Assembly: GCA_018654255.1 (NCBI GenBank)
Contig: JABILX010000004.1
Coordinates: 62,001 to 126,000, forward strand
DNA: 64,000 nucleotides
Reading direction: 5' to 3'
Source of the DNA: Candidatus Peregrinibacteria bacterium
GTDB taxonomy: Bacteria > Patescibacteriota > Gracilibacteria > UBA1369 > LOWO2-01-FULL-3
The position numbers and the translations under genes were made by a program. Of this stretch, positions 35,701 to 62,163 are shown piece after piece. How positions within the stretch are numbered: the first letter of the stretch is position 1; every line of letters begins with the position of its first letter. The notes beneath the pieces were generated by a model. It was not told the origin of the DNA and did not search any database. It saw only the letters and a list, made by a program, of their open reading frames with translations.

Positions 35701-35763
35701 TTCGGACACAACGGTGCTTTGCGGATTTTCCGCGACCAGATTGTATTTTTTATTGTTTGGCAT
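32710..35763 (-). CDS. hsdR: Type I restriction enzyme, R (endonuclease/translocase) subunit
   Basis: Motor and nuclease of a type I restriction system. The N-terminal nuclease domain has a PD-(D/E)xK core with LPLVHIELKRRGVAIQEAF (Glu-x-Lys). The SF2 helicase motifs follow: TTGSGKTLTS (Walker A, about residue 330), IFDECHRSQFGD (DEAD-like) near 430, and GFTGTPIF. A C-terminal helical part binds the HsdM/HsdS core. Length of 1017 aa is normal. The start overlaps the hsdS stop by 14 bp, a sign of translational coupling. Confidence 0.96.
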   Translation of the reverse strand: MPNNKKYNLVAENPQSTVVSEYTPDKKRASHYQSEAELERAFVKQLGEQSYEYLNITAEADLVLNLRKQLEKLNDFEFTDTEWDHFFASEIANPNQSIAEKTATIQEDYIKNLKRDDGTVKNVYLLRKNNIHHNSLQVINQYATDEGQRANRYDVTVLVNGLPLVHIELKRRGVAIQEAFNQINRYQRESFWASSGLFEYVQLFVISNGTHTKYYSNTTRYEHIKEASEGAAKKGKRSSNSFEFTSWWADATNKPITDLVDFSKTFFAKHAFLNILTRYCIFTSEQQLMAMRPYQIVATEKILNKIEVSTNYKKLGTVEAGGYVWHTTGSGKTLTSFKVAQLASKLPHIDKVLFIVDRKDLDYQTMCEYDKFEKGAANSNTSTAILKRQLEDTNASIIVTTIQKLDRFIGSNKGHTIFDGHIVLIFDECHRSQFGDMHAAITKAFKNYHLFGFTGTPIFAVNASSGGRPDFKTTEQAFGEKLHTYTIVDAIADKNVLPFKVDYVSTVREAEDIEDKKVSGIDREAALAAPERLANIVSYIREHFDQKTKRNSFYKLKDRRLAGFNSIFAVSSIDVAKKYYAEFKKQLADVPSDKKLKVATIFSFGVNDEDLDGMIDENSEDTSGLDKSSRDFLESAIQDYNKMFGTSYDTSSDKFQNYYKDVSKRVKKREIDILLVVNMFLTGFDATTLNTLWVDKKLRLHGLLQAYSRTNRILNTIKTFGNIVCFRNLEKATNESIALFGDQEASGIVLLKSYEEYYNGYKDDDKEVRGYKSLVEELLEKFPIGEQIIGEQKQKEFIRLYGGILRVRNILVTFDEFEGNEILTERDIQDYHSAYIDLYNEFRKGEDTEKENINDDIVFEMELIKQIEINIDYVLALVKIYHEDHTKNKEILLDINKAIDSSIELRNKKELINQFIASLEINSVVDEDWQEFVNKKKVEELEKIIKNENLDHDQTYKFVQNAFRNGNISTTGTAIAKVLPPVSRFSPDGERTKKRESVLDKLMSFFERFFDISGGKL

Positions 35764-40677: not shown

Positions 40678-40824
40678 ATGGGTCTATCTCCCCAATCAAT
40701 CCAGGAATTCCAAGAAATCTACAAAACCGAACTCGGAGAAGAGTTGAGCTATGAAGAAGCAGAAAAACAAGCAAAGGATTTTCTTAATTTATACCTTATA
40801 ACCACGCAACAGAAAAATGACTGA
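40678..40824 (+). CDS. 48-aa small protein upstream of the primase
   Basis: Short ORF starting MGLSPQSIQEFQEIYKTELG and ending FLNLYLITTQQKND. The pattern (I/V)xEFxxIYKxExGxxLSxEEAxxxAxxxLNLY recurs in small ORFs of mobile elements in other bacteria, to my recollection. Its last 8 bp overlap the primase start, so the two are likely coupled. The function is unknown; its position suggests a replication or control role. Confidence 0.7.
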   Translation: MGLSPQSIQEFQEIYKTELGEELSYEEAEKQAKDFLNLYLITTQQKND

Positions 40825-44275: not shown

Positions 44276-45901
44276 ATGAAATACTTCATCTACATAAGAA
44301 AATCATCTGATAGGGAAGATCATCAAATCCTAAGCATAGGATCGCAAACAAAGGTACTCGAAGAACTTGCGGCAAAGATGGGAGTGCAGGTTGTAGCCAT
44401 CTACAAGGAGGAGAAAACGGCATACAAAACGGGTCGTCCAAAATTCAACGAAATGCTAGCCAGGATTGAAAGGGGGGAAGCTGATGGGATAATTGTTTAT
44501 CACCTTACAAGAATAGCAAGGAACAGCTTTGATGGAGGAAGGGTGATTTACATGATGGACGAAGGTACGCTGAAAGAAATCATAACTCCAGAAACAACAT
44601 ATACAAACCTCACAGATCATAAGTTCCTGATGCAGATCCATTTTGCAATGGCGAAGAAAAGTTCAGATGATACAAGTACATTTGTAAAAAGAGACAATCA
44701 AACAAAGCTGGAAAAGGGAGAGCTTATAGGGTTGGCATCGTTAGGCTATTTGAACATAGACAAAGAGGGGAGAATAGCAGGGAAAAGATACACGAACGAA
44801 AAACAGGTTTTGCTTGCACAATTAGGCAGACCTTTAAAAAGAACAGAGATAGATCCTATTGATGGTCCACTAGTAAAGAAAGTATTGGAGAAGGCGGCGA
44901 CAGGAACTATGTCTGCAAGTGCACTTTTAGAATATGCTAATGAGATAGGGCTGAAGAATATTGCGAAAAATACTCTGTTCAACATGTTCACAAACCCCAA
45001 CTGCTATGGATCCATAAAATCCAAGGGCAAAATATACCAAGGAGATTTTGATGCATTGATAAGTAAAAAAACTTTCGACCAAATTCAAGACATGCTTAAG
45101 AATAAGTCTAAACCAAGGAAACAAATACACAGATTCCCATATGTAGGGATAATGAGATGCGACGAATGTGGTTCTATGATAACAGCAGAAATTCAGAAGG
45201 GGCATGTGTATTACAGATGCTCAAAGAAAAAGGGGAAATGCAAACAACCATACTTAAGAAGCGAATTACTTGAGAAGCAGTTAAAGGATTATCTTGAAAA
45301 GGTGCAAATCCCAGATGCGTTCATCAAGTGGGCTTCAAAGCAACTACAGTCAGTTTATAAAGACGAAGTGAAGGTACAAGCATCAACAAGAATGAGCGCA
45401 CAACAAGAGCTAAACAGGCTAAAAAAGAAACAAGCAAAACTGCTTGAAGAGTACCTGAGTAGTGATAGCGTACTAACAAAAGAAGAATACTCAGAACAAA
45501 AACAGAAAGTATTAACAGAAATATGCTTGTTAGAAGAAAACATGCAGGCTCACAGCGGCGAAGAAGTTAAGTGGATAGGTGATTGCGAGGACTTCTTCGA
45601 GTTCTCAAGCCAACTGTTAAACAGATTCGATACAGTCGATATTGAAGAGAAAAGATTTGTACTTCAAGCAATCGGCTCGAACTTTGTGCTAAAAAACAGG
45701 CAGCTAACCTTGGAATACCAGAAAATATACAAACCTTTCTTGAAATTGAATGAGTTTGAATCACAAAACCGGCTCGAACCAGAAAAACCCGATGTAGAAG
45801 CCACGAAGAGCCATTTTGCTCGAAAAATAGCTTTATGGGGTGAGCGATGGGGTTCGAACCCACGACCCCCTGGACCACAACCAGGTGCTCTAACCAACTG
45901 A
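44276..45901 (+). CDS. Large serine recombinase (integrase) whose end overlaps tRNA-His
   Basis: Site-specific recombinase for integration and excision of the element. The N-terminal resolvase domain has the catalytic Ser10 in IYIRKSSDRE and conserved residues in LTRIARN. The recombinase domain follows (about 155-270). A zinc-ribbon (RCDECGSMITAE, then YYRCSKKKGKC) and a coiled coil near 370-430 complete the large-serine-recombinase plan. The last about 22 codons and the stop are antisense to tRNA-His (GERWGSNPRPPGPQPGALTN), so the chromosomal attachment site provides the C-terminus. A structured leader precedes it. Confidence 0.94.
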   Translation: MKYFIYIRKSSDREDHQILSIGSQTKVLEELAAKMGVQVVAIYKEEKTAYKTGRPKFNEMLARIERGEADGIIVYHLTRIARNSFDGGRVIYMMDEGTLKEIITPETTYTNLTDHKFLMQIHFAMAKKSSDDTSTFVKRDNQTKLEKGELIGLASLGYLNIDKEGRIAGKRYTNEKQVLLAQLGRPLKRTEIDPIDGPLVKKVLEKAATGTMSASALLEYANEIGLKNIAKNTLFNMFTNPNCYGSIKSKGKIYQGDFDALISKKTFDQIQDMLKNKSKPRKQIHRFPYVGIMRCDECGSMITAEIQKGHVYYRCSKKKGKCKQPYLRSELLEKQLKDYLEKVQIPDAFIKWASKQLQSVYKDEVKVQASTRMSAQQELNRLKKKQAKLLEEYLSSDSVLTKEEYSEQKQKVLTEICLLEENMQAHSGEEVKWIGDCEDFFEFSSQLLNRFDTVDIEEKRFVLQAIGSNFVLKNRQLTLEYQKIYKPFLKLNEFESQNRLEPEKPDVEATKSHFARKIALWGERWGSNPRPPGPQPGALTN

Positions 45902-45913
45902 GCTACGCTCACC
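45836..45913 (-). tRNA. tRNA-His (GTG)
   Basis: On the minus strand it has an encoded G-1, acceptor GTGAGCG/CGCTCAC, D-arm GCTCAGTTGGTTAGAGC, anticodon loop TTGTGGT (anticodon GTG), T-arm with GTTCGAACC, C73 paired with G-1, and CCA. It is the likely insertion site of the element to its left. Confidence 0.97.
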
Positions 45914-46126: not shown

Positions 46127-46157
46127 ATAAAAAAGCTCCTCCCACTTGGGGAGGAGC
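46127..46157 (-). terminator. Rho-independent terminator of the giant operon
   Basis: On the minus strand the stem GCTCCTCCC / GGGAGGAGC (9 bp) is followed by TTTTTTATTT. It lies 135 bp after the stop codon of the 2706-aa gene. Confidence 0.88.
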
Positions 46158-46292: not shown

Positions 46293-49200
46293 TTATAACT
46301 CTAATTTTTCAATAATTTCACTTTCCAATTCAAGTAGTACTTTATCAAGATGTTTCCTGGTGCCTTTCCCATCATCATTATGCTCTCCTTTCCAGTACTC
46401 CTTCAAAAACTGAACTTTATCTCCAGCTACCTCTAGCTTTATAGCTAACGCAGCAAGACAATGCACCTTTTTAGCATAATTGTTATAAATACTTGGAGAG
46501 TTCTTTTGGGCCGTATGTAACCAACGTGGACTTAGAACGAGCTCTCCATCGCTCACAAGATTAGGAAATTTACCGTGTCGTTCGCTTTTAAAGCGAACCG
46601 GCACCTTACTCCAAGCCTTTTCAAAGGTATCTATTTTCTTTAATCTTTCCTCCATCGACTTGCTAGATTTTTCTGTAAGAGCAGCATCAAGTCCAGTCGA
46701 AGAGGCCCTAAGTTTTTTAATAAATTCGTGAGAAAACAGTTCCGAATAGTTTGTAGTGATTTTGTCAAGATATTCCTTAGTTTCCAAATAATTTTTCTCG
46801 ATATCACCTTTGTACCAAGAACCCAAGGTTTCGCCATCAGAGACGGTAGGCTCTTCATAGCCAGTCTCAGCACCAGTTAATTCACTATCTTTTTCAGGAT
46901 TAGCTTCTTCATCAGCTGTTTTTTCGTCGTCCTTAATCGCTTTCTCCGTAGATTCATCATGTGCGCCAGTGGGGGTAAGTGGTGCTGTCGCTGCGGCTTC
47001 TAATGCTTTCTTCGCCTGTTCTGCAGGGGATTTATAAGTGGTATCATGCCAGACAACATAGTCCCAGTAGCCAATATTCTCATCAGGGTTGGGACCATCA
47101 TCAATAACCAAAGTACCACATTCACCTTCGTCATAACATCTTGCTCTCAGTTTGAAATAAACGTATCCTCCAAAGGCCTTAAATGGACTAGCAATCACTA
47201 ATCCCAAAGCCCAACCAGGAAGTCCCGCAACTTTATCGAACCCCTTAGCGGCAGCCTTTCTTAAAACCCCAGGCTCTCCAGACTTCCCAGGCTTCCCACC
47301 CTCACGGGATTCGCCAGGACCTGACCTTCTTCCACTTTTTTTAGCCTTGTCTTTACCAATAATCTTATTTCTATTAGTTCTAAAATAATCAGATAGAACA
47401 TTTAGTGCTCTAGTAGGCGTGAAATTGCTTCTATCAATTTCTGGTGATCGAGGTCGTTCCAAAGGCATTGGCCTCTCAAGATGATCTACAATCTGTGAGT
47501 TCTGGGGGTCTTGACCCGTATTCTCTTGAGAAGGCTGTTCTGCAGCTCTAGAAAATCTGTTTATTAAAACATAGATATCTTCTTTCAATGACAGATTGTC
47601 AGCCTTCATTTTAGAATCAAGTTTCATTAATTCACGTGCAAATTCTTGAAAAGCTTCAGTTTGTGCTTGATCCAATGCCTGACGAGGGTTGTTCTCAAAA
47701 TTTGGAGAAGATCTACTAGCTTTTAAAAATATTCTTCTCGCATCTATAATACCGTGCAAATTGACAGCCTCCGTGATAATAGTAATTAACTCTGCTGGTA
47801 TTGAATCTGCAAACTTGGGAAGATGAGAACTCGCCATAGCATCCATCAAATTAGCATATGCCAGGGTGAATTCCTTAAATCTAGAAGCTGGAGCCTCCAG
47901 TGCCTGATTACCCCTGCTTATATTCTCTTTGACAAAATTTGGTAAATCGAAATCCAAAACGCCTCTGCCTGACTTGAAAGAAATATCGAAATCAGAAGAA
48001 TCCATGAATGATTCAATAGCAATCATTAAGTCAGATCTGTCAAAAACAGTATTGTCACCAGGGTTTCTTCTAGTAGCAGTCTGGCTTTTAGGTAATCGCC
48101 CAGTAGTTTTATCAAAGTCATACGCAGATTCTAATTTTTCCAAGTACTTTTTAGCTTCTGCTTTATAAAGCTTACGAATATTTGGATCAAGGGTCTTAGA
48201 ATACTTTCCTAACGCACCTCGTACTTTTTTATAATGCTTATTAAAATCAGCCCTATTATTTATTTGAGCTTGCTCAAAGGGCTTGACACTATCCTTCAAC
48301 GCATCATTAGCATCTCTAATATTGCTGCGTACAAAAGATTCACTAATTGATTTCAAATCCTCTCTCAAATTTTTTGATCTTTTGCTTCCCAGCCTTCCAG
48401 ATCTATACATACGATATAACACGTAAGATCCAACTAAAACAGGAGTTCCAATGGAGCTTATACCAATAGTCCAGTTAACCCAATTACATCCCTGTAAAAA
48501 TAAAGAAGAACCAGCTATGATGGCCAATTTTCCACCACCAGTCTTATTAAATGCATCAAAAATTTTCTGTAAAGACCCATTATGACCCTCATAAGCTCTA
48601 CCAAAAAGGTTCCTTAATTCTGCTTTAGACATTCCTAATTCCTTTATTAGATCTCTCGAATATTGTCGTGATATTCGATTAAACATTCTAGAGTGATTTC
48701 TCGCGAGATTCTCAACAAACAAGTCTGCGGTCAAAGCATCAGCCTTAGCAAGTTCCACGATATCCGCGTATTCAATTTCAAATTTGACACCACTTCTTCT
48801 AGATAGAACTTCCAAAACAGTACGTCCTTCAGCAGTGTTCATAAATCTTTCGAAATCAGGCTTTGATACGGTTTTTTTAGGATCTGTCAGTACAGAATCT
48901 ACCTCTGAACGAACAGATTCTAAAGCTTTAAGTTTCGCATCCTTTCCTTCAAATTGTCTCCATGTATCTCGGCTGATATCCAAATTAATAGATTCAAGAG
49001 CAAAATTCCATGACTCTTTAGGAGTCATACCCTCAACAATACCTGCATCAAATGAATTCTCAGTAATGTAATTCATCACTTCTCTGGTTCTCCCCTCCAC
49101 TTTCATATTAGGATCAACAGTTAGTATTTTTGCTGCCAATCTACCAGCTTTCCCAGATTGATATAATTCAGCAACAGTCTCACCTAGCATCAACTCTGAA

Positions 49201-52200
49201 TCAAAACTCTCAACCTTCCCCTCAAAATCCCTAACCCGTTCAAGAACACTCATCCTCTCTTGAGCAGTTAGGTTTGTTCCTTCCAACATCATTAATTCTC
49301 TAGCATGGAATCTGCTCATCAAGAAGTCCAACATTTCACCTTTCGCTTTGGTAGAAGGCAAGTCTCCAAACAATTCAGATGCAAAATCACCAAGACCATC
49401 AATAAATTCAGCAGCTTCCCGTACAGATTTAGAAAGCTTAGCTTTAGAATTTCTAGCCAGCATTTCAATAATCACTTGACCATGTTCACGGCTATAAATG
49501 TCCATTAGTTCTTCCATCTTTATATCTTTTGCACGGGCTTCCAATTTTGTTAGCCTATCAAGAACTGCCTTTCTGGCCTCCAATGATTTGATCTTTTCCC
49601 AAGATCTAGCATCTATGCCTCTAGCTTTAGACCATTTAATAAGTTCACCAACTTTCCCAAATTCCATGCCCTTAAATAAACCAAAATCAGCGACTCCGCC
49701 TTCATATAGATAATCTGCCACTTTGAATATTTGTCTCTTAGAAGGTCTTTTGCCCCTGCTTTCTCTAGGAGCAGTGTTATACTCTTTCATTACCTTTTCG
49801 TAATATTGCTCCCTATTAAATCTTTTAATTCCTCTGTCTTGCGACGAAGGCCCTTTACCAGAAATCATCCTTTGTCCCATTCTGATACCTATAGAGAACG
49901 CAAGATTGCCTCTGATTGCCGCAGCTGCATCAAATGGGTGGTCACCCTCAAATGCTGAGTGCCAAAGGTATTGAGTACCAGTAAGAGCAGCAGCATCCAC
50001 TATTGGTATGAAAGGAAGGGTAGCAGCTTTTGCATAACGACTAGTAGCGCCAATCTTTTGTGCGCCTGACCCAACCATCTTTAGGACTCCAAGAGTCAAG
50101 ACACTTTCTCCCCAAGACTTAATTTGCTCGGTTGGGCTCCATAGATGATGAACATTACCAGAAGGGAGGGCAGAATTAAGCATCATCATCTCAGAGAAAG
50201 CCAGGGTCTCTGCTGCGAAACCAGCAGCTTTTGCAGTGAAAGCAGAACCACCTTTTTTAATAGTAAGACTTGCGAGCTCTTTCATTGCCTGTCTTCTCAT
50301 GACCAAACCAGTTATACCTTTTCCAGCAGCACTTGCCCCCCATCCCATTGCGACAAACGCAGGTAAATCCATAACCATGCTAGTCCAAAACTCTCCAGAT
50401 TCCTGAGCTGTCATTCTCCAAAATTCATAAAACTCTTTGTCAATTTCTTCAAAATCATCTTCATATGCCTCCCATTTTTCATCTACGCCAGGAATAAGTT
50501 CTAAGGCTTTTTTCTTTAGAGATTCATCCGTGCTTTTTCGCGAAAGAACACCAGTTACAGTTCTAACAACATGCTCTCTCCACAATCTTGAAATGATCGT
50601 TAAATCATAATTTTCCGAAACTCGCTTTGAAATAAGCTCCTCTTCTTCTTGTGTTAAAGTCTTGTCTTCGCGACTCAATCTCTCTTGTTTAATAGCATTG
50701 TCCGTCACATCAGATAAGGAACCAGATTTTCTGTCATCTACCAAGATCTTGTGTAGATCTGATCCATCCGTGAGACACTCTTTATAAAATTCTTTCCTAG
50801 CTCCTCTGCCAACTCCGCAAGCTTCAAATAAGCCAGCTTCTTCAAAATAATTATATTGGAACTCTTGTGAGGCATAATACATTCTAAAGCCTTTTAACTT
50901 CTCGCCTCGCGCTATGTCATGAATAGGCTCGCCACTCATGTAGCTATCCAAGACGCCAAACGCCTCATCGTAACGTTTTTTGTCATCTCCAGATACCATC
51001 TCGCTTCGCTCTACGTTCTTCAACAACTTCGCAGCACCAGGGTTAGATTTTCCATATTCAGCCCATTTCTCATCGAGAGCACTTCTGTCCAACTCTTGGA
51101 ATTTATTTACCCATTTTGATAGGTCTCCACTCAATATCAAGTCTTCAGCAGCATCTGTATCTGTAAATCCAAGAACTTCATTCATGTATTTAACAGAGTC
51201 TTCTTTTGTCATCTCATGCAGATTCTTTGTCTCTTTCAGAGCATCCTTTAATGAAAGAATTTCATTGTCTTTTGAAAGAATTTTACTTGCAACTTCGAGT
51301 GCAAAAGACTGAGATTTAATTTGGCCTTTAATGATATGCGAATGAAATTTGCTAATACTAATTTCATAGGCTTCATAGTTCGCATCACCTGTTTCATCAA
51401 AATATGCTTTAATATTATTTTTAATAAAAGTTGGTGTAGCTTCCCCAAGCCATATAGTTTTCTTCTGATCAATATTCATCTCAACTGAACGTTGTAGTAC
51501 ACTCAACTGATAATGCAGCTGCGCAACCTCGTCCATCGCAAACATCTTGAGTCGGCTCTTAGCTTGTTCAATTTTAAATTCTAACGTTGGATCCTGAGAA
51601 TTCTCCCTATGAGATTTCACGCCTTCCAAGAAAGCTAGATAAAATTCTTTAGCTTTTTCTTTATCACCATTCCTTAGATGATCATCCCCTTTATAATAAT
51701 CAAGCACATAAGATCTATCATCCAAAGAGGCTTGAACCTTTTGTATTTTCATATACTTAACTAGACCAAAATGTTCGATTACACTGTCTATTTTTGCAAT
51801 AGTTCTAGCTGAATCCTCATGTAATTTAGGGTCCTCATGAGCCTCTTTCTTGGCTAGATAATAAGCATCTGTGAGAACAAGAACCTTGGCTTCATCTTCC
51901 TTACCATAATAGCGAACATACGGAACGAATACCCCATTGATATCTTTGCCTTCATCCTTGAAATCTTTAATGAATTTATCAAAAAGAAGTACAGGTTGCT
52001 TAGGGTCTACTTCAGTAACATCACCTGTTAATGAAACATTTATTAAATCAACGCCAATTTGGTCAAAAGCCTTTTTGAATTCTTCAAGCTTTTTCTTGTC
52101 ATCTTCGTCAAGATCTTCTTTTCTTTTCAAAAGATCAATCAGAGCAGGCTTTAGCAAAATTTTCTTTCCAATATAGTTATTATGTTCAGGAATTGGAATC

Positions 52201-54413
52201 ATTTCCCTGTCTATATCGTCCAACTCTGAATTCGGAGTTAAGAATTCAAAATAATCTCCGTTTCCTTTAAGCAGTTGTTCAAGATCAATAGCATGAAGAT
52301 CTTGAGTCTCTCTACCAATCAACTCAATTTCAATTGCACCCATGAGAGAAACAAACTTCTTGCTGAAAATTTTCCCATATTTCTTTACAACATCTATTTC
52401 TCTGTGTTTGCCAAGATAAGTTCTAGCTAATTTCTTGTAAGCAGTTTGAAGCTTCTTTTCTGGCATTTCTGCCAAGACTTTTCCTTCAAACTCTTTTGAT
52501 ACTTCAAAATACGCCCGCATATCCTTGCTCATGACATCTACTAACTTCAGAGCCTCGTCAAACCCTTCTTTGAAGAATTTTCTGTCATTTGAACTTATTG
52601 AGAAAGACTCCCAAGCAGGGAAATTCCCATTGCGATAATAAGGGTTTGAATTGCTTAAATAGCCTGTTTTTTTACACTTGTCGTAATTGTTTTTTAGGCT
52701 AGATTTGAGCTTTGATAGCGATGATTTTGAAGGCTCTTTATTATAATCAATAGCATCGTCAAATACTTCTAATATCTTTTGCCTATCCTCAACGACATCA
52801 TCCATTATCTCATAAGCTTTGATAAACTTATCAACATCTCCTAGTCTTTCTTCAGCAATTGATATTGCTCCTTCTATACTTTGTGGATCTACTTTTTTCA
52901 TTTTGCTAAGATAATGGTCCCCATTCCAGACAGAAGCTCCTACTGTTTTTGGCAAAGCAGGCGAGTTGTTGTAAGGACGTTTCCCATCAACAACATCAAG
53001 CATGAAAGAAATAGTCTTATTGATATTTACATTCAAAATATCCAAGTAATATCTACCACTTTTATGTTTATTATTTGTGTCAAAATAAGCCTCCTGCAAT
53101 TTAGATTGAGCTTTCCTAGCAGAATCAACTACTCCCAAACATCTTTCCTCTAGCCATTCCCATTCCTTATCGCCTCTTTCGTCTGACTCTTTCCTAGATT
53201 CAATTTTTTCACTTACAGCAGAATCCGAGTATGGAAACTCTTTGCCTCTACCCAATGTAGAAATAGAATCATCCTCTTCATCCAGAGCATACAATAAGTA
53301 ATTCAATTCAGTCGAATATCTAGCCAACAATTCACCATCATCTTCACTCAAACCGCCTTGAGATTCCATTGTTTCATATAAAGCCTCTACACTTGACTTC
53401 AAAAAACCGAGTCTGTCCAAGTTTATTTTGGCTTCTCCTCCTAAAGCATCCAGTAAATAATTCACTTCGGTAGAATATCTAGAAAGTGAATCACTATCAG
53501 ATTTATTCAAACTACCTTGAGATTCCTTTTTTTCATCAAGCGTATCTACCTTTTGTTTCAAAAGGTAAACTCTATCCACTTTTACTTTATCGTAAGAATT
53601 ATCAACATTATCTCCAATCCTATCTCTAAGTTTACTTACAGTCCTGTCATAATCCTCCTGTTGTTGAGGCAGGTTATTGTATGTATAAAGGTTCCTATCA
53701 AGTTTAGACATCTTGTACACACCCGCTTCTTCAAGCTTATACAGAACTGCCCTAAATTCCCTGACAAGCTCTTTGAGTCCACCATAGAACTTTTGTCGCT
53801 CCTCAGGTGTATGTTCAGAGATTTCCACATAATCAGTGATATAAGCGGCAATAGATTTAACAACGGATTCAAACTCATCAATTTCAGCATCAATATTAAC
53901 ATCTAATTCAACAGCTTTTTCTAAGAATAATGCTTTATAGTAACCATAATTATCTAAGATTTTTTCGACTTCAATACCTCTAATATACTTAGCAAATAAA
54001 ATTGTCCAACTAGAATCTATAAGAACCTCCTCAGTAAGTTCATACATCTCTTTATTAGCCAAATAATTCAAACCCTTTTTAAACTCTAAAGTTGCTCTAC
54101 GTACTCTATTCTCGTATGCCATTCTTTCCCCATCAGATAGTTGAGCAAAGGGAGTCTTCCCATCAACAATATCCTTACCAATCTTAACCAGTTTAGCTCT
54201 TGCACCTTTAACGGTTCTAAGCGCCAACATGGCCTCGATTTTTTTTGGGTCTTTGTCGTCCAATTTTTTAGCTTTCTCTTCAATTTCTTGATATTTAGCG
54301 TCAAAATTAGCAACAAATTCCAAAACATAGTCATCCACAAATAAATTCTCAAAAGCGGACAGTTCTTTTTCAGGTATATCTACCTTTAATTCTTCGTTAG
54401 GTTTATCAGACAT
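46293..54413 (-). CDS. Giant 2706-aa membrane-associated protein, unknown function
   Basis: Last and largest gene of the six-gene operon. No family recognised. Residues 1-1330 are charged and helical, with a tandem 48-residue duplication at about 285-385 (RYSTEVNYLLDALGG and RYSTELNYLLYALDE). Residues about 1340-1510 have several hydrophobic stretches (WTSMVMDLPAFVAMGWG, SVLTLGVLKMVGSG). A further hydrophobic patch at about 1960-2010 holds an internal LQGC, which is lipobox-like but far from the N-terminus, and a last helix (LPGWALGLVIASPFKAF) is near 2390. The C-terminal region (2300-2380) is rich in Gly, Lys, Glu and Pro. There is no N-terminal signal peptide. It resembles in size the giant proteins of CPR bacteria, of which few have known roles. 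Confidence 0.75.
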   Translation of the reverse strand: MSDKPNEELKVDIPEKELSAFENLFVDDYVLEFVANFDAKYQEIEEKAKKLDDKDPKKIEAMLALRTVKGARAKLVKIGKDIVDGKTPFAQLSDGERMAYENRVRRATLEFKKGLNYLANKEMYELTEEVLIDSSWTILFAKYIRGIEVEKILDNYGYYKALFLEKAVELDVNIDAEIDEFESVVKSIAAYITDYVEISEHTPEERQKFYGGLKELVREFRAVLYKLEEAGVYKMSKLDRNLYTYNNLPQQQEDYDRTVSKLRDRIGDNVDNSYDKVKVDRVYLLKQKVDTLDEKKESQGSLNKSDSDSLSRYSTEVNYLLDALGGEAKINLDRLGFLKSSVEALYETMESQGGLSEDDGELLARYSTELNYLLYALDEEDDSISTLGRGKEFPYSDSAVSEKIESRKESDERGDKEWEWLEERCLGVVDSARKAQSKLQEAYFDTNNKHKSGRYYLDILNVNINKTISFMLDVVDGKRPYNNSPALPKTVGASVWNGDHYLSKMKKVDPQSIEGAISIAEERLGDVDKFIKAYEIMDDVVEDRQKILEVFDDAIDYNKEPSKSSLSKLKSSLKNNYDKCKKTGYLSNSNPYYRNGNFPAWESFSISSNDRKFFKEGFDEALKLVDVMSKDMRAYFEVSKEFEGKVLAEMPEKKLQTAYKKLARTYLGKHREIDVVKKYGKIFSKKFVSLMGAIEIELIGRETQDLHAIDLEQLLKGNGDYFEFLTPNSELDDIDREMIPIPEHNNYIGKKILLKPALIDLLKRKEDLDEDDKKKLEEFKKAFDQIGVDLINVSLTGDVTEVDPKQPVLLFDKFIKDFKDEGKDINGVFVPYVRYYGKEDEAKVLVLTDAYYLAKKEAHEDPKLHEDSARTIAKIDSVIEHFGLVKYMKIQKVQASLDDRSYVLDYYKGDDHLRNGDKEKAKEFYLAFLEGVKSHRENSQDPTLEFKIEQAKSRLKMFAMDEVAQLHYQLSVLQRSVEMNIDQKKTIWLGEATPTFIKNNIKAYFDETGDANYEAYEISISKFHSHIIKGQIKSQSFALEVASKILSKDNEILSLKDALKETKNLHEMTKEDSVKYMNEVLGFTDTDAAEDLILSGDLSKWVNKFQELDRSALDEKWAEYGKSNPGAAKLLKNVERSEMVSGDDKKRYDEAFGVLDSYMSGEPIHDIARGEKLKGFRMYYASQEFQYNYFEEAGLFEACGVGRGARKEFYKECLTDGSDLHKILVDDRKSGSLSDVTDNAIKQERLSREDKTLTQEEEELISKRVSENYDLTIISRLWREHVVRTVTGVLSRKSTDESLKKKALELIPGVDEKWEAYEDDFEEIDKEFYEFWRMTAQESGEFWTSMVMDLPAFVAMGWGASAAGKGITGLVMRRQAMKELASLTIKKGGSAFTAKAAGFAAETLAFSEMMMLNSALPSGNVHHLWSPTEQIKSWGESVLTLGVLKMVGSGAQKIGATSRYAKAATLPFIPIVDAAALTGTQYLWHSAFEGDHPFDAAAAIRGNLAFSIGIRMGQRMISGKGPSSQDRGIKRFNREQYYEKVMKEYNTAPRESRGKRPSKRQIFKVADYLYEGGVADFGLFKGMEFGKVGELIKWSKARGIDARSWEKIKSLEARKAVLDRLTKLEARAKDIKMEELMDIYSREHGQVIIEMLARNSKAKLSKSVREAAEFIDGLGDFASELFGDLPSTKAKGEMLDFLMSRFHARELMMLEGTNLTAQERMSVLERVRDFEGKVESFDSELMLGETVAELYQSGKAGRLAAKILTVDPNMKVEGRTREVMNYITENSFDAGIVEGMTPKESWNFALESINLDISRDTWRQFEGKDAKLKALESVRSEVDSVLTDPKKTVSKPDFERFMNTAEGRTVLEVLSRRSGVKFEIEYADIVELAKADALTADLFVENLARNHSRMFNRISRQYSRDLIKELGMSKAELRNLFGRAYEGHNGSLQKIFDAFNKTGGGKLAIIAGSSLFLQGCNWVNWTIGISSIGTPVLVGSYVLYRMYRSGRLGSKRSKNLREDLKSISESFVRSNIRDANDALKDSVKPFEQAQINNRADFNKHYKKVRGALGKYSKTLDPNIRKLYKAEAKKYLEKLESAYDFDKTTGRLPKSQTATRRNPGDNTVFDRSDLMIAIESFMDSSDFDISFKSGRGVLDFDLPNFVKENISRGNQALEAPASRFKEFTLAYANLMDAMASSHLPKFADSIPAELITIITEAVNLHGIIDARRIFLKASRSSPNFENNPRQALDQAQTEAFQEFARELMKLDSKMKADNLSLKEDIYVLINRFSRAAEQPSQENTGQDPQNSQIVDHLERPMPLERPRSPEIDRSNFTPTRALNVLSDYFRTNRNKIIGKDKAKKSGRRSGPGESREGGKPGKSGEPGVLRKAAAKGFDKVAGLPGWALGLVIASPFKAFGGYVYFKLRARCYDEGECGTLVIDDGPNPDENIGYWDYVVWHDTTYKSPAEQAKKALEAAATAPLTPTGAHDESTEKAIKDDEKTADEEANPEKDSELTGAETGYEEPTVSDGETLGSWYKGDIEKNYLETKEYLDKITTNYSELFSHEFIKKLRASSTGLDAALTEKSSKSMEERLKKIDTFEKAWSKVPVRFKSERHGKFPNLVSDGELVLSPRWLHTAQKNSPSIYNNYAKKVHCLAALAIKLEVAGDKVQFLKEYWKGEHNDDGKGTRKHLDKVLLELESEIIEKLEL

Positions 54414-54431
54414 TTTAATATTTGTTATTTA

Positions 54432-54797
54432 TTATTTTTGTAATTGTTTCTTCAACTCCTCCAAATCTACCTTTTGTTTCAAAGCAGACATTGAAGAAGA
54501 AGATTTAGATTTTGTATCTTCTTTAACCATTTTATTTTCAAACCTATCCATCTCATGCATATATTCATCAGGGTCATTTTCAAGTCTATCCAAAATGTAC
54601 TCATATTTACTAACCAAATCTGTTTTCTTTCTATCCAAACCCCCAACTGCGTCATGTTCTTTGTCCAAAGTCATGAAAATCTCAACCTTTTGACTCTTAA
54701 TCATCCCTGGAAGCATATTTTTGATCAATGTTTTATAGAATCCAGGTAGTGTGGAATTTTTTAGTAAAGCTATAATGACAGCATCTATTTTTTCCAT
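54432..54797 (-). CDS. Unknown 121-aa helical protein of the giant operon
   Basis: No family recognised. A short hydrophobic start (AVIIALLKNSTLPGFYKTL) is followed by charged helices and a Ser/Lys-rich tail. It starts 3 bp after the 330-aa gene's stop and ends 18 bp before the giant gene, so it is co-transcribed. It could be an accessory or chaperone for the giant protein, but this is a guess. Confidence 0.65.
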   Translation of the reverse strand: MEKIDAVIIALLKNSTLPGFYKTLIKNMLPGMIKSQKVEIFMTLDKEHDAVGGLDRKKTDLVSKYEYILDRLENDPDEYMHEMDRFENKMVKEDTKSKSSSSMSALKQKVDLEELKKQLQK

Positions 54798-54800
54798 ATA

Positions 54801-55793
54801 TTAGGTTAAAACTTTAGATAAATTTTCAAAATCACTAGGATTAATCAACAATATTAGTTGAGCTAATTCTTCATTCGTAGGTTTTCTTTCGGTAGAAATT
54901 GCTTTGTTCATAATAATAACTGCCTTTTGCACGTTATCTCTCGACGTAGAAGTAAGTATTTTATCAAAAGTACCAACGACACCATCTAAGGCAGCTCCTC
55001 CCAGGTTTGGAGAGGACAATTTGTTAACTGATCCTATTAATTTTGTTCGATCTACATTTAAATTATTCAGAATTGAATTTAATTTCATCCCAGTTTTTAA
55101 GCCACCAAGCATGCCTCCAGACCCTAAATCAATCGTAAATAAACTCTTCAACTTATCTACGTTCAACGCATTCGAAATATCACCTTTTTTAGTAACTGCT
55201 TCAAGATTATCAAAGTGCTTAGCAAGAGCAGCAGCATCCATACCGTGTTTACTACAATGCAAATTTAAGTTCTTGAGTAATTTGAAACCAAATCCAGCAA
55301 CCATTAACTTCTGATCCAAATCAACCGATTTTGGCACCTTTCCCTCTTGAGTAAGAAGTGTCAAGACAGTGCCTACATTGCTCTCTTCATTGTCATTTAA
55401 TTCATCTTTAAAGGTCGAAACCCCCAAACCAACAAACATATCAACAGATTCTTCCTGAGGTTTATCAAGTTTAGTATTCCCAACAAGATCTTCCTTTACA
55501 GCTTTCGCTATTTCTTCTTGGTCAGCATCTTTTAGGAAAGATTCAACGTCGGCCTTTGCTTCTTTTTCAACCTTTTCTTCCTCAACTCTAATTCCAGTAT
55601 GCTCAGAAAACAATTGATTAATAAACATAAAAACTCTATTTCTTAGTTTTGTGCCTTTTGGAGCCTTTATAGCTTTATCCCAAGCACCTTTAAACCTGTC
55701 AGATATGCCGGTTACACTCTGAAGGAAGGACTTTTTTTCAGTTTTTACGTTAGGTTTTATTCCTGGTCTTTCTTTTTTGCTTTTAGGCGACAT
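54801..55793 (-). CDS. Unknown 330-aa protein of the giant operon
   Basis: No family recognised. N-terminus basic and Pro-rich (SPKSKKERPGIKPNVK), middle acidic and helical. A Gly-rich segment near residue 220-235 (TIDLGSGGMLGGLKTGMK) and a helical C-terminus (NVQKAVIIMNKAIS) follow. No signal peptide or membrane helix. Its start overlaps the end of the 86-aa gene by 11 bp, which shows tight coupling. Confidence 0.68.
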   Translation of the reverse strand: MSPKSKKERPGIKPNVKTEKKSFLQSVTGISDRFKGAWDKAIKAPKGTKLRNRVFMFINQLFSEHTGIRVEEEKVEKEAKADVESFLKDADQEEIAKAVKEDLVGNTKLDKPQEESVDMFVGLGVSTFKDELNDNEESNVGTVLTLLTQEGKVPKSVDLDQKLMVAGFGFKLLKNLNLHCSKHGMDAAALAKHFDNLEAVTKKGDISNALNVDKLKSLFTIDLGSGGMLGGLKTGMKLNSILNNLNVDRTKLIGSVNKLSSPNLGGAALDGVVGTFDKILTSTSRDNVQKAVIIMNKAISTERKPTNEELAQLILLINPSDFENLSKVLT

Positions 55794-56043
55794 TTTGTAA
55801 TGTTTTTAATGTTTCTTTTATAAGGTCTTTACTGTGCGGACTGTATGTCAGGGCTATACTAATATATATATTCTCAACTTTTCTTTTTGCATCCTTGAAC
55901 TTTCTTATTACTACCTCTAGTTTATCTTCAGGCATTGAGTCTGATTTTTCAATCCATTTATCTCTGTAATCCTTTTCAAGGAAATCACATTCTTCGATGA
56001 TTTTTTTAAAGTCTGACTGTCTGTTAGTATGTTTTTTTGTCAT
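55783..56043 (-). CDS. Unknown 86-aa helical protein of the giant operon
   Basis: No family recognised. Short, soluble, charged and helical (FKKIIEECDFLEKDYRDKW, LEVVIRKFKDAKRKVENIY). It overlaps the next gene by 11 bp and follows the 374-aa gene by 10 bp. Position and composition suggest a small partner protein, but nothing more can be said. Confidence 0.62.
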   Translation of the reverse strand: MTKKHTNRQSDFKKIIEECDFLEKDYRDKWIEKSDSMPEDKLEVVIRKFKDAKRKVENIYISIALTYSPHSKDLIKETLKTLQNVA

Positions 56044-56053
56044 CTAGTAAGTG

Positions 56054-57178
56054 TTAGTGGTCGAAACTGACATCATCATCATAGGTTCCACCTTCCTCAA
56101 CTTTTATTGGTCCATCTGAGTCATCATCGGTCGAAGAATCCGAACCAGTTTCGTCATCGTGGGAAACAGATTCCTCTTGGTTTGGTATATGTACATTGTT
56201 AACCCAATCTTGATGATCATCTTCATAAGCAGCTTTTTTCTTTTCCATATTTCCAATTTTTTTGTCCGCATCTTTGACCACAGCTTCAGCTTCAGCTTTT
56301 TCAACCACATATTCATTTCTTGTTGCCAAAGAACCCGGATTAGCTTTTAAGTCATCTTCACCATCAAAAGTGTCATTCATTTTTTTGATCAGAGCATTCT
56401 TTTTATTAACCCTCTGCTGAGCAGTTTTTTTGCGGTTCTTTTGTTTTTCAATCTTGTCATCAATCTCTTCTATTATTAAGTTCATCAACATCTCGTGGCT
56501 GTCTCGATTTTTTCTCAACTGATCAATGTTTGTTTGTCTAGTCGCCATTTTTCGCTCCAACACCTCAAGCATTTTATCTGCTGGCATTGAAAGGCCAAAA
56601 GTATACAATGATCCCAAATTTGTCTCTCCATACTGATTTTCAGCGCCTTTCGAACGCTTTCTATCTGCTTTTAAGAGGGCCGCCCTCAATTTTTCGACCT
56701 TCTTGTTCTTTTTGTCCCACATAGTACCCCAACCCTTAGTATAAGAATCTCTTTCTTTTATAGCTGCATTAAGTTGGCCCTCTTTCACCCCACGAACGAT
56801 ATCTCCAACATTTTCCATCTCCAATCCCTGGGACTTCTTTTCTTTTAAATCATTGTAAATTTCGACCAAATTCGAATCCTTGCTCTCAGCGCAAGTAAGT
56901 TCTCGTTGATACATTTTCATACAATAGTAATGATACGCATATTTGCCTTTCTCTTGCATAGCAACCTCAGCGCCCTCATAAGAAGGGGGGTTGAAATCGT
57001 ATTTTGCACGCTTGAACAAATGGTCTAACTTCCCTCCAAGGTACTCAGCCCCCTTTTTTAATTCATGCCCTCCCTCTCTCATCATCAAAAGCATGTCATT
57101 AACAACATCAGTCATCATACCGACTGCTTCAACCAAGCCTTCTACTAATTTTTCTGCTGTTTTGACTAGATCAGACAT
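56054..57178 (-). CDS. Unknown 374-aa coiled-coil protein with acidic tail
   Basis: No family recognised. The first about 40 residues are amphipathic (LVEAVGMMTDVVNDMLLMMR). Residues about 90-320 are heptad-rich coils (IDDKIEKQKNRKKTAQQRVN, then VKDADKKIGNMEKKKAAYED). The last about 35 residues are Asp/Ser/Glu-rich. The order suggests a membrane-near coiled-coil scaffold, by inference. It begins 25 bp after the 1161-aa gene. Confidence 0.68.
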   Translation of the reverse strand: MSDLVKTAEKLVEGLVEAVGMMTDVVNDMLLMMREGGHELKKGAEYLGGKLDHLFKRAKYDFNPPSYEGAEVAMQEKGKYAYHYYCMKMYQRELTCAESKDSNLVEIYNDLKEKKSQGLEMENVGDIVRGVKEGQLNAAIKERDSYTKGWGTMWDKKNKKVEKLRAALLKADRKRSKGAENQYGETNLGSLYTFGLSMPADKMLEVLERKMATRQTNIDQLRKNRDSHEMLMNLIIEEIDDKIEKQKNRKKTAQQRVNKKNALIKKMNDTFDGEDDLKANPGSLATRNEYVVEKAEAEAVVKDADKKIGNMEKKKAAYEDDHQDWVNNVHIPNQEESVSHDDETGSDSSTDDDSDGPIKVEEGGTYDDDVSFDH

Positions 57179-57203
57179 TATTTACTAAATATTATTTATT
57201 TAT

Positions 57204-60200
57204 TTACGGCATCCACCTATGGTGGGGTCTATTTATTCTATACCAATCTTTTATATCCTTCCAGGTACCACCCTCACGTAAAAATCTGTCATCACCAAAA
57301 ATTTTCGCTCTAAATCGTTCAGCATATGCTGGTATTTGAGTTATTTGTTGAGAACGTTTTTTGGTACCATAATTCAAAGCTAGTGCATCCATGTACACGG
57401 GTCTTTCTTCATTAGGTAACAAAACATCAGGTGAATGAGTTTCAGCCAACGCATCAATATCTACATCTGATTTGAATCCAAAGTATTCAGCTGCAAAAAC
57501 ATTTACTTCTGCCCAATCAAGACCACCCCCACTAGTAGTACTTAAATCGGTCCTTAAATCAGAAATAACTTTTTGGTATGATTTGAACAATTTATCCTCA
57601 AGTTCAGTTCTACCGTTTTCACTTTCAGAAAGCTCCGCCATGCTCAATTTCTCTCTTGTATCCTCAACATCAATAGGTGCATCACTCTTACCACGCCACT
57701 CATCTGCAAAAAGTTTAATGTCAAACAGACCAGGCCAATCAGGAATATTCTCTGATGATCTACCCTCTTTTAATAGACTCCTTGATTGATCGATAACTTC
57801 ATCTTCCACATATTGGAAGTAGCGAGCTCTTAAATTTGAATACTTCTTTTGATCTTCGGTTGAATATTCGTCCAATTTTGACTCATCAAGATGAGACGTA
57901 AAGTAATAAAAGGTTCCAAGCAACTTCCCTGCGACATTGTGCAGATTCTCAGACCAATCAGAACCCTTCAAATCAAGTTCTGAAAGCATGTGAGTTTCAA
58001 ATCTATTTGTCGCATACGCATATTCCTCACTTTGTGTGCCAGCAGACCTCAGTGGTTGAATAACTTTCATTAGATATTCATTTCTCTCCCAATGGCTACG
58101 GTTCTTAGGTTCTGCCTTTCTAATCACAGTTTCATAAAGGCCATCCATCTCATCGAGGGTCTTTTGAATATTTAATCTTGCATCATTCACTCCACCTAGA
58201 GTGTCAGCTTTCTCCATCTCCCACATAAGTTTGTACTTCAAAGCTTGTTTCTTACTATCTATCAACATGGCTGTGAAATATTCAGGAACTGTTCCATTAA
58301 CACAGTCACCATCTACACCCGCGGCGATATCGCTAATTTTTGCATCAGTTACCCAAGTGCCAAGTTCCTTGAAGAAATACAAGACATGACCTTCAGGCAT
58401 ATCAGGCACGTAGTCCTTCATCTTATCAAACACTTTAAATGGACTATTTTTTCTTCGGTCAAGTGACTCAACGTATTCTTTTCGGAAAGTAAGGCTTCTA
58501 ACCAAGGCCTTCTCTTCATCCTTATCAACAATATAGAATCTGTCATTAGCACCATCAAAGCCAACTTTTAACTTCCGCTCACCAGGGAAGTGCAGAATAA
58601 AATGTTCATCACTATCTTGTATATCCTCAAATCGAACCTCACCATTATTCTGGAAAACACGAAGTGCGGTGAAATCATCGTTTCCACCTTTGCCATTTTG
58701 GTTAATAACCTTATTAATGACCAATGGTGCGTGTTCATAATCAAGAGCCATTATCTCATCGATAACAATTACAGATTTAGAACCGTCAGAAGTCATAATT
58801 GCCTTCCTTCCATCAGGGGTAAATTCGACTAGTACAGAGATTGTAGTAGGATCAATTTTGAACTTCTCAACATATGAAGTAAGAATAGTTCCTGACCATA
58901 TGCCCAAATGTTCATCCCATGTAATACCAAGTTTCTTGTCCGCAGTCGTGACAGATCTAAGCATCTTATTCGCACGCTTATTGATTGCCTCAACGACATC
59001 TCTCCTGCACAGAGAATCCTTGTCGCCAAGCTTATATTTACCTACAGAGGTTGCTCCCTTCCCATCATCAGGCGGCAAATAAAATTCATATTCACGACCA
59101 GTAGGAGTTTCATTAATTCGAATAGAAACCGGATATCCTCTAACTGTAGCATTTAACAAAGCCTGAGCAGGGGCAGCATTTGGAATTATCATTCCATCAA
59201 TATCTTTGAAAACTCCAGTTGGCCCAGTAAGATCTAACCTTGCCTTGTGAAGTAATTTTGATGTCCAGAATTGCTCCTTGTAATTAGGAGTAAAAGCAGA
59301 AAGCTGATAAACCAAATCGTGTATTGTATAGTCCTGACTTTTTTCAGATAAGAATTTTTCTTCAAATGTTACTCCCTCAGTTGGATAAACGTTCTCTTCA
59401 TACATTCTTTTTAAACCTTGAACAGATTTGAAAAGTTGTTCGGAAGTTTTTACATACAGTTTTTCCATGGCCGAAAAAGGAGCTTTTTTACCAGGAAATG
59501 GTCTAGCATTAACCACATCTGCAGGCAAGAATCCAGAAAATGCTGGATTATCAAGATGAATTATTTGAGAAGCCGATGCTTGAGGGTCATAAAATGAGCT
59601 AGTAGGAGTTATCGAACCAAATATTTCTTTAACAGGTGCATTAGCAAGACTTGCCATCAAACCAACTTCAATTCCTTTTTCATAAGCACTCGGATTCCTA
59701 CTCAATAATGAATCTAGGTTTTCAAATGCAGTTCCTTTAATATCCGCATTTACACCTTTCCCTTTCAATTCCTTCAAATATTCCGGCGCAAAAATTGATA
59801 AACCACAGTACAAAGCACCGCCATACAACGCAAACTTCTTTAAAGACTTAGCTCCTTCAGAAGAACTGGCAGCAAAATTCTTATAAACTTTATAAAACAG
59901 CCAGCCTGCTAAAGCGTATTTTGCAATTTCAGGATAGTCTCTTTGCTCGACAGCATCCATCATCTTCCCACCAATCTCTTGGACCTTGTCAGTGGCGGTA
60001 ACAAAAACACCATCTCTATCGGATTCACGCATATTCTCGTCAATTAAACCATGAGAATCACGTGATTGCCGAAGCAAATCTTTGACAGTCGAGAGGTAGG
60101 TGTAAGCAATCAAAAACATCTGTCCACCACGACCTCCCTTCCCAGAGTCTTCCGCAATCTTATTAAGCTTACCATCTGGAAATTGATACAAGCTCCTCAA

Positions 60201-60689
60201 ATCATTACGTTCCTTATTCTTCCAAATTTCAGGATCATAAGCATAGGAGAGGTGACCTTTTAACCAATTGGCTTCTGTATTTGTCAGGAAACCAAGTTGA
60301 TTTTGGAGAACGTCCATTGTATGAGTAAGTTGTTTTTCAGATTGATGTTCCAAACTTTCTGGGTCGATATCATACTCTCTTCTTTTTCTACTCAATTCCA
60401 AAAGGTCTAATCTTTTTAATCTCTGAATTTTCCTGTCAATTTTATCTTTGAAAATATCTCTTTCAGTTTGTCCTTTTTTTGTTGCTAATTCAGCTTTTGT
60501 TCGTCCTCTAACTTCAGCTCTTTTAACTTCTGCTTCAGGCGCTGTCTCGGGCTCTGCAGGAGCCACAGGCTCAGGATCTTCAGCCGCAGGCGCAGGTACA
60601 TCAGGATCAGGTGGTGGTGCAAAATTGCACAAACGTGATTCTTTGAACAAGCTTTGTGAAAGAATCGAGTTTAAATATTTTTTGAACAT
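57204..60689 (-). CDS. Large 1161-aa protein of the giant operon with Pro/Ala-rich N-terminus and two hydrophobic segments
   Basis: First gene of the operon. No family recognised. A Pro/Ala/Glu-rich linker at residues 25-60 (PPPDPDVPAPAAEDPEPVAP) follows a short basic start. Two adjacent hydrophobic segments near 260-275 and 285-305 (YALAGWLFYKVYKN, FALYGGALYCGLSIF) could insert in the membrane. The long remainder is a mix of beta- and alpha-rich domains (residues about 480-900), ending PHHRWMP. No catalytic motif found. A perfect promoter lies 50 bp upstream. It may be the membrane base for the cluster, but that is inference. Confidence 0.72.
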   Translation of the reverse strand: MFKKYLNSILSQSLFKESRLCNFAPPPDPDVPAPAAEDPEPVAPAEPETAPEAEVKRAEVRGRTKAELATKKGQTERDIFKDKIDRKIQRLKRLDLLELSRKRREYDIDPESLEHQSEKQLTHTMDVLQNQLGFLTNTEANWLKGHLSYAYDPEIWKNKERNDLRSLYQFPDGKLNKIAEDSGKGGRGGQMFLIAYTYLSTVKDLLRQSRDSHGLIDENMRESDRDGVFVTATDKVQEIGGKMMDAVEQRDYPEIAKYALAGWLFYKVYKNFAASSSEGAKSLKKFALYGGALYCGLSIFAPEYLKELKGKGVNADIKGTAFENLDSLLSRNPSAYEKGIEVGLMASLANAPVKEIFGSITPTSSFYDPQASASQIIHLDNPAFSGFLPADVVNARPFPGKKAPFSAMEKLYVKTSEQLFKSVQGLKRMYEENVYPTEGVTFEEKFLSEKSQDYTIHDLVYQLSAFTPNYKEQFWTSKLLHKARLDLTGPTGVFKDIDGMIIPNAAPAQALLNATVRGYPVSIRINETPTGREYEFYLPPDDGKGATSVGKYKLGDKDSLCRRDVVEAINKRANKMLRSVTTADKKLGITWDEHLGIWSGTILTSYVEKFKIDPTTISVLVEFTPDGRKAIMTSDGSKSVIVIDEIMALDYEHAPLVINKVINQNGKGGNDDFTALRVFQNNGEVRFEDIQDSDEHFILHFPGERKLKVGFDGANDRFYIVDKDEEKALVRSLTFRKEYVESLDRRKNSPFKVFDKMKDYVPDMPEGHVLYFFKELGTWVTDAKISDIAAGVDGDCVNGTVPEYFTAMLIDSKKQALKYKLMWEMEKADTLGGVNDARLNIQKTLDEMDGLYETVIRKAEPKNRSHWERNEYLMKVIQPLRSAGTQSEEYAYATNRFETHMLSELDLKGSDWSENLHNVAGKLLGTFYYFTSHLDESKLDEYSTEDQKKYSNLRARYFQYVEDEVIDQSRSLLKEGRSSENIPDWPGLFDIKLFADEWRGKSDAPIDVEDTREKLSMAELSESENGRTELEDKLFKSYQKVISDLRTDLSTTSGGGLDWAEVNVFAAEYFGFKSDVDIDALAETHSPDVLLPNEERPVYMDALALNYGTKKRSQQITQIPAYAERFRAKIFGDDRFLREGGTWKDIKDWYRINRPHHRWMP

Positions 60690-60738: not shown

Positions 60739-60767
60739 ATTATACCAAATTTCCGAACTTTTTTCAA
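60739..60767 (-). promoter_or_regulatory. Promoter of the giant operon
   Basis: On the minus strand TTGAAA (60767-60762), 17 bp and a perfect TATAAT (60744-60739), 50 bp before the start codon at 60689. No terminator is evident inside the operon. Confidence 0.85.
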
Positions 60768-60861: not shown

Positions 60862-62163
60862 ATGCAATACGAAGTAAAATTATTACCAAAATCAACGGTA
60901 AAATTGACAATCGAAGTTCCAGCAGAGGAACTAAAAAAACACAAAGAAAAAGCAGCCGAAGATATCTCAAAAGATGTGAAAATACCTGGCTTTAGACCTG
61001 GTAAAGCGCCTCTAAACGTACTCGAACAACACGTCGATCCAAAGCATATTTTGGCTCACGCATTCGAAATTGCGACACAATATTCATACGCAGAAGCCGT
61101 CACAAAAGAAAAATTACGAGTCATTTCTAGACCAAAAATTAATTTCATTTCGGACACAACAAAAGCAGACGAACCACTAAAATTTGAGGCAGAAGTTGCA
61201 GTCCTTCCAAAAATAGAAGTAAAAAATCACAAAGAAATTTCTGTAAAAAAAGAAGAAGTAAAAGTCACAGAAAAAGAAATCGAAGACGTAATTGAAGACT
61301 TGAAAAAACATTTCACGGACTGGAAAGACGTGGATCGTCCTGTGAAAAAAGGCGATCGTGTCGAACTTGATTTTGAGGGATTTGAACCTGATAAAGACGG
61401 AAAAGCAGACAAGGCTCTAGAAAATACAGCCTCAAAAAACCACCCAATCGTAATGGGGGATAACGTGATGGTTCCTGGATTCGAAGACAACCTCCTCGGC
61501 CTAAAAAAAGATGAGAAAAAAGAATTTGAATTAACTTTTCCAAAAGAATATCACAAAAAAGATTTCCAAAATAAACGCGTTATTTTCAAAGTAGAGCTCA
61601 AAAGAATTGAAGAAGGGGTGAAACCAGAGCTAAACGAAGAGCTAATCGAGAAATTAACAGGTCAGAAGATGTCAATTGAGGAATTCAGAAAAGACGTCGA
61701 CAAAAACATCAGGGCGCAAAAAGAACAAAAAGCAATCCAAGAAAGAGAAAATAAATACTTGGAGGAATTGCTGAAAAGAGTTGAAGTTGAATTACCAGAC
61801 TCATTAATAGAAGAAGAAATCGACTTCATTATGCAGGACATGCAGCAAGACTTGGCACAAAAAGGCGTTCCATTCGAGAAATTTTTGGAGCAAACAAAGA
61901 TGGATCTCACAAAATTAAGAGAAAAATATCGTGAAGAAGCGGAAAGAAGAATCAAAACACGAATGGCTTTGATGCAGGTGATTGAGGAAGAAAAAGTTGA
62001 AATAACAGATAAGGAACTCGAAGATGAGATCACAAAAATGATTGAATTCTATCCAGAAGATCAAAGGACTCAAGTAAGAGAAGAGCTAACCAAAGACGAC
62101 GGAAAATTTAAACTAAAAAATAAACTTTTGTTAAGAAAATTTTTCGACAAAGTTTTAGGGTAG
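60862..62163 (+). CDS. tig: Trigger factor (ribosome-bound chaperone and prolyl isomerase)
   Basis: Binds at the ribosome exit tunnel and folds new proteins. The ribosome-binding loop GFRPGKAP lies near residue 44-51. The FKBP-type PPIase domain is at about 155-245 (GDRVELDFEGF, MVPGFEDNLLGL). The C-terminal helical arms run from about 260 to 433 (LPDSLIEEEIDFIMQDM). Length of 433 is normal. Its start is divergent from the giant operon, 173 bp apart. Confidence 0.95.
   Translation: MQYEVKLLPKSTVKLTIEVPAEELKKHKEKAAEDISKDVKIPGFRPGKAPLNVLEQHVDPKHILAHAFEIATQYSYAEAVTKEKLRVISRPKINFISDTTKADEPLKFEAEVAVLPKIEVKNHKEISVKKEEVKVTEKEIEDVIEDLKKHFTDWKDVDRPVKKGDRVELDFEGFEPDKDGKADKALENTASKNHPIVMGDNVMVPGFEDNLLGLKKDEKKEFELTFPKEYHKKDFQNKRVIFKVELKRIEEGVKPELNEELIEKLTGQKMSIEEFRKDVDKNIRAQKEQKAIQERENKYLEELLKRVEVELPDSLIEEEIDFIMQDMQQDLAQKGVPFEKFLEQTKMDLTKLREKYREEAERRIKTRMALMQVIEEEKVEITDKELEDEITKMIEFYPEDQRTQVREELTKDDGKFKLKNKLLLRKFFDKVLG

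Follow-up and report, generated by a model that had tools for sequence, protein, structure and literature searches.

At the locus described here, between the trigger factor gene tig and a tRNA-His gene, lies a fast-evolving module of genes that is core to one Peregrinibacteria family. Its first protein, here named A, carries near its N-terminus a short conserved peptide, the tag, that is also found on unrelated proteins encoded elsewhere in these genomes. We tentatively propose an undescribed protein-sorting system of Peregrinibacteria, a plausible reading that stops short of a probable one, in which the tag would direct numerous proteins, often giants, to one shared destination and the operon would encode the conserved core assembly. 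Candidates for that destination are a novel cellular body and a novel route of export. The window analyzed is a 64,000-nucleotide stretch of a Candidatus Peregrinibacteria genome that spans 1.24 Mb in 9 contigs and is 96% complete.

The unit comprises six minus-strand open reading frames, every one starting with ATG, in the order A (1161 aa, 57204-60689), an untagged 374-aa protein in the position occupied by a protein B in relatives (56054-57178), an 86-aa protein (55783-56043), C (330 aa, 54801-55793), the small D (121 aa, 54432-54797), which lies immediately upstream of the giant, and, as the last gene, the giant G itself (2706 aa, 46293-54413). The intergenic gaps are, in the same order, 25, 10, -11, 3 and 18 bp. 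The six packed genes, with their coordinates and gaps, are as the original prediction had them, and its pairing of a consensus promoter with a strong terminator likewise held up. On the minus strand at 60739-60767 lies the promoter-like site TTGAAA-17-TATAAT, with an extended -10 formed by a preceding TG; it matches the consensus at 11 of 12 bases and ranks first in the region, this being a match to consensus alone in a region where the total of promoter-like sites equals that of the shuffled control. The strongest terminator of the region is an intrinsic terminator-like hairpin at 46135-46157 on the same strand, with nine pairs, seven of them GC, and a T-run. Packed between these two signals, the genes form an operon-like unit, as had been predicted. 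No Shine-Dalgarno-like sequence precedes any of the six genes, and the start codons are therefore less certain than usual.

Two conserved genes flank the unit from outside. The tig gene (60862-62163, plus strand) is transcribed divergently and lies upstream of A at related loci too, while the tRNA-His gene (45836-45912, minus strand) marks the far flank here and in four related loci (L025, L029, L030 and L039). The gene for a large serine recombinase (44276-45901) overlaps the tRNA-His gene at its 3' end, and a prim-pol gene (40817-43252) and a type I restriction subunit (32710-35763) are found nearby; together they probably make up an integrative element next to the module. L039 has a close homolog of this recombinase at the same tRNA-His.

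The named relatives were reached through the neighboring trigger factor, and they are Candidatus Peregrinibacteria, Peribacteria and Gracilibacteria genomes; like all genomes used here they are metagenome assemblies with mechanically predicted ORF starts. As a single-sequence query, A matched 17 of the 29 other genomes of its family and none of 30 genomes that represent the order's other families. A 14-row profile raised this to 20 of the 29, along with a single genome from a different family (G072, E=5.5e-10), and seven of the nine family genomes lacking a match are at most 85% complete. In relatives the usual gene order is A, B (206-475 aa), G (about 900-2100 aa), C (~286-401 aa) and D (~80-123 aa), and some additionally have, between tig and A, a gene pair encoding U (about 900-1460 aa) and V (about 130 aa). 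The arrangement in the window departs from this, with C and D ahead of the giant. The synteny search found these genes kept together in related genomes, and so the separation that the original prediction had named as evidence against it was not seen. At the site by tig in HGW-Peregrinibacteria-1 (G004, one contig) there are an A-like protein of 662 aa, a weakly D-like protein of 83 aa (E=6e-5) and giants of 1028 and 1334 aa. These two adjacent giants (L150, 6308-13418) have homologous N-terminal domains of 140 residues (hhalign 99.8%). In still more distant members (L086, L087, L089 and L151) the same site carries long proteins and ones of ~121-125 aa that are not recognized; except for an A match in L151, no similarity between them and the module was detected, and they are possibly its positional counterparts, homology aside.

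Several irregularities were observed at individual loci. In L039 (2241-6167), L033 (10467-14623) and L032 (3187-6922) the gene for A is broken up into two or three ORFs, and one of the three carries an in-frame TGA; a pseudogene, a split gene or an assembly error are candidate causes. L030 (3423-4982) and L031 (3763-5322) have, between G and C, an oppositely oriented gene of 519 aa whose product clusters with the giants of other relatives.

Within the window the ties to the relatives differ from gene to gene. In addition to the profile matches of A, C was recovered with E=1.2e-16 by a profile built without the window sequence (281 aligned columns in hhalign), and D matches its counterpart in L025 with E=1.2e-14, nine columns being invariant across eight homologs. 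Residues 1394-1517 of G (49863-50234, minus strand) show a weak, local similarity to the L025 giant (hhalign probability 44.7; pairwise E=2e-4), and the relatives' giants themselves form several groups that show no clear similarity to one another. Neither the 374-aa nor the 86-aa protein has a detectable homolog among the relatives; comparison of the former with the B profile by hhalign was not significant, and the latter has no counterpart in the relatives' module. We treat the window as the same system because A, C and D match by sequence and the remainder by position and size. The predicted conservation of a multi-part machine thus stands by sequence for A, C and D, does not extend to the 374-aa and 86-aa proteins, and for G comes down to one weak local match. 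That the module proteins form a single machine or assembly is what we infer from this arrangement.

Comparison of two congeneric genomes (G012 and G022) gave dN/dS values of 0.13-0.17 for A, B, G and D and of 0.05 for V, and all five proteins are under purifying selection in this pair. Since A also has profile matches in relatives, these values rule out chance ORFs. Synonymous divergence between the two genomes is 0.47-0.52 for A and B, close to that of four flanking genes (0.26-0.59), and exceeds 1 in most of G, in C, in a downstream neighbor and in most of U, its last ~300 codons apart. The simplest reading would be that recombination tracts replaced the highly divergent parts of G, C, U and this neighbor. 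The abrupt leaps in synonymous divergence within genes, from ~0.5 to >1, are seen in U between L080 and L081 and in G and C between L030 and L031.

The module proteins gave no match above curated cut-offs in Pfam, NCBIfam, PHROGs, PADLOC or sequence searches of PDB, bearing out the prediction that none of the six has a recognizable family. An AlphaFold model of the whole of A from an 11-row alignment reached a mean pLDDT of 56, and a model of residues 485-1010 was better at 70.5. The predicted architecture consists of the N-terminal tag, a Pro/Ala-rich linker, a helical region, a beta-rich region at ~511-720 and a second helical region at ~723-1000. These models are too weak to assign a fold or to show an assembly fold. 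Foldseek searches with them returned nothing below E=0.001, and similarities to PURA, Mediator and tape-measure proteins were discarded on that ground; strong structural matches placing the six proteins in a known system, which could have overturned the original prediction, were not found. A contig search of genomes with A as query gave no match. Neither module nor tag is described in the open-access papers searched, most subscription papers lying outside that scope, and both are new relative to these papers and the libraries searched. The original prediction had further proposed a membrane linkage from hydrophobic segments in the 1161-aa and 2706-aa proteins. This is not supported by the hydropathy scan: the highest 19-residue Kyte-Doolittle means are 1.24 in A and 1.33 in G, and no segment of either reaches the usual transmembrane cut-off of about 1.6. 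Inspection of the six proteins likewise revealed no hydrophobic N-terminal (Sec) signal.

The tag was first spotted in the alignment of A as a conserved N-terminal segment within an otherwise variable leader, and the same segment begins some B proteins. The original prediction had mentioned neither this tag nor the fixed site between tig and tRNA-His. The general pattern of the tag is [FL]-x-E-x-R-[LF]-[VI]-[FY]. In A it spans residues 13-23 (SLFKESRLCNF; 60621-60653, minus strand); the tag profile finds it with E=1.8e-6, A's own tag being one of the 24 rows of that profile. Besides A, it occurs on B, C, G and U in some genomes, and within the module of the window on A alone. When 509 local ORFs were searched for E-x-R-[LFYVI]-[IVLMFACYW] within their first 45 residues, 23 distinct matches came up: 21 belong to A, B, C, G or U, one lies at the module position in L087 and one elsewhere. 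A stricter expression had 14 occurrences within the first 30 residues against a single one in the other 99,143 residues, a 198-fold N-terminal excess (p=4e-16, uncorrected for relatedness). At the DNA level, the motif search of the window's own genome and G018 listed 45 matches in any frame, of which four lay in frame in ORFs of at least 100 aa, all four N-terminal. As the total was not above that of a reversed-pattern control, the signal of the tag is its position and not its count. Many further N-terminal cases came from other genomes of the family; they use different synonymous codons, so selection acts on the protein.

When the profile of 24 peptides was run over eight genomes, it detected at E<0.06 11 further genes beyond its own rows and those already collected, every one of them with the tag at the N-terminus. 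Their predicted products measure 242, 348, 482, 664, 849, 849, 1484, 1510, 2207, 2345 and 2579 aa (median 849). The strict pattern, searched in frame in 353 genomes, added four more of the same order and four elsewhere in the class; a class-wide tag is accordingly unsupported, the in-frame matches being mostly in the same order. Short, set close to the N-terminus though not at a fixed distance from it, frequently succeeded by a low-complexity linker and mounted on unrelated bodies, the tag has the properties that a docking or sorting signal needs.

The genome of the window encodes, apart from A, tagged proteins of 2223 aa (divergent from tpiA), 1510 aa and 348 aa. The giant next to tpiA belongs to a homologous family found in this genome (G000) and in G012, G016, G020 and G004. 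In the 348-aa protein (L315, G000:C7, 579-1625) the tag is a variant, LFNTNRLVY, and inspection by eye shows a thioredoxin-like stretch, ATWCNGC. Tagged giants of 1484-2579 aa at L313 (G000:C6), L316, L317, L318 and L319 are a second family besides those of the module; this family includes a beta-rich stretch, is divergent from tpiA in L313, L316, L317 and L319, and is followed by a gene for a protein with a hydrophobic N-terminal signal. A further tagged family of ~300-530 aa (L236, L239, L243 and L248) lies beside genes resembling nucleoside diphosphate kinase and transketolase halves. Nearly all tagged proteins lacked a Pfam match. A tagged protein of 1965 aa in L321 (G020:C5, 711-6608) is glutamate-synthase-like (PF01645, E=2.9e-13), and the glutamate synthase homolog of G005 has a tag-like start with H in place of R; the copies in other relatives show no clear tag. 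A relative, G028, appears to have a tagged glutamate-synthase-like protein too.

It is possible, and we advance it with reserve, that the tag serves to dock its bearers into a hitherto undescribed assembly, with A as a core subunit. The locus would then encode the subunits of a large protein assembly with A at its center, and the tag and flexible linker of A would dock it to a receptor that also gathers the other tagged, often giant, proteins encoded elsewhere. G could be a long structural partner, and D, perhaps with the 86-aa protein, might be a small partner or chaperone of the large subunits. Such an assembly would be intracellular or bound to the envelope from the inside; an intracellular destination is favored by the tag on a glutamate-synthase-like enzyme. 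Against it stand the presence of the tag on B, C, G and U in some genomes only and the weakness of the fold models.

The tag might alternatively be an undescribed non-Sec export signal, with A, G and the other tagged giants displayed on the surface or secreted to act on neighboring cells, though we consider this somewhat doubtful. A short N-terminal signal without a hydrophobic stretch, the flexible linker, the fast divergence and the recombination tracts in G, C and U would all suit such proteins. Two related tagged giants have a sub-threshold peptidoglycan-binding match and another a beta-rich stretch, cases that favor a surface or exported location. Moreover, small proteins are encoded immediately upstream of several tagged genes, as D is upstream of the giant in the window, and by analogy with the pairs of type III secretion they could be export chaperones; however, their homology to D is not significant, no export apparatus was noticed at the locus, and the occurrence of the tag on the glutamate-synthase-like enzyme and, by eye, on a thioredoxin-like protein also speaks against export.

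That module and tag are two unrelated things that coincide is unlikely in our estimate: the module would be a conserved complex, and the tag an unrelated general leader of long proteins in the order, concerned with folding, translation or turnover. This would account for a tag on many unlinked and unrelated proteins, for several module proteins without one, and for trigger factor as the divergent neighbor, but at the sampled loci the tag is almost confined to module proteins, and the existence of tagged proteins of 200-500 aa indicates that length alone is not the rule. It is very improbable that the unit is a mobile element or prophage remnant with tail or tape-measure proteins as its giants, a view that could draw on the size of these proteins, the serine recombinase gene overlapping the adjacent tRNA-His and weak tape-measure matches in a viral fold library, but that conflicts with the fixed site and near-family-wide presence, with the lack of relatives in two viral-contig scans, of phage families in the unit and of any match below E=0.001 in that library, and with the situation in L025 and L030, where tRNA-His likewise borders the unit and no recombinase-like gene was seen.

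Large parts of CPR genomes are unreadable, and a fixed core module together with a tag provides a handle on them for one order, allowing many unnamed giant proteins to be brought into one group and tested jointly. Should the tag prove to be a sorting signal, a cell structure or a secretion route would come to light in organisms that are believed to live on other cells or together with them and whose interaction machinery is largely unknown.

Among known systems, Vampirococcus lugosii, from a related CPR lineage, has giant surface proteins that are reported to be located in the membrane and to have recognizable adhesion and interaction domains (PMC8080830); the proteins described here are likewise very large, but lack transmembrane segments and known domains. 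Peribacteria, of the same broad group, have large exported cysteine-rich proteins (PMC4736985), whereas A has four cysteines and G eight, with no visible Sec signal. Two small proteins at related loci weakly match DUF5663 (PF18908; E=0.10 and 0.14, below the curated cut-off), and none of the window's own small proteins does. A tailed phage or contractile injection system was rejected, the unit having no recognizable tail, capsid or packaging genes (chance-level matches only in PHROGs, Pfam and the viral fold library), as was an anti-phage defense system, since none of the six proteins matches a PADLOC model at E<=0.01. Type III secretion resembles the present case in its non-hydrophobic N-terminal signals and in the small proteins encoded beside some tagged genes; its signals are not known to share a fixed sequence motif. 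In encapsulin cargo loading and microcompartment encapsulation a short terminal peptide with a flexible linker gathers unrelated proteins. The tag is similarly a short terminal peptide common to unrelated proteins, but these differ from such cargo in often being giants. A cargo system of either kind is ruled out by missing shell proteins, encapsulin (PF04454) and the BMC shell (PF00936) being absent from the window's own genome and five others (G012, G018, G020, G004 and G016), with control genomes positive. As the known tag-using compartments need shells, their absence here favors an undescribed assembly, with non-Sec export second.
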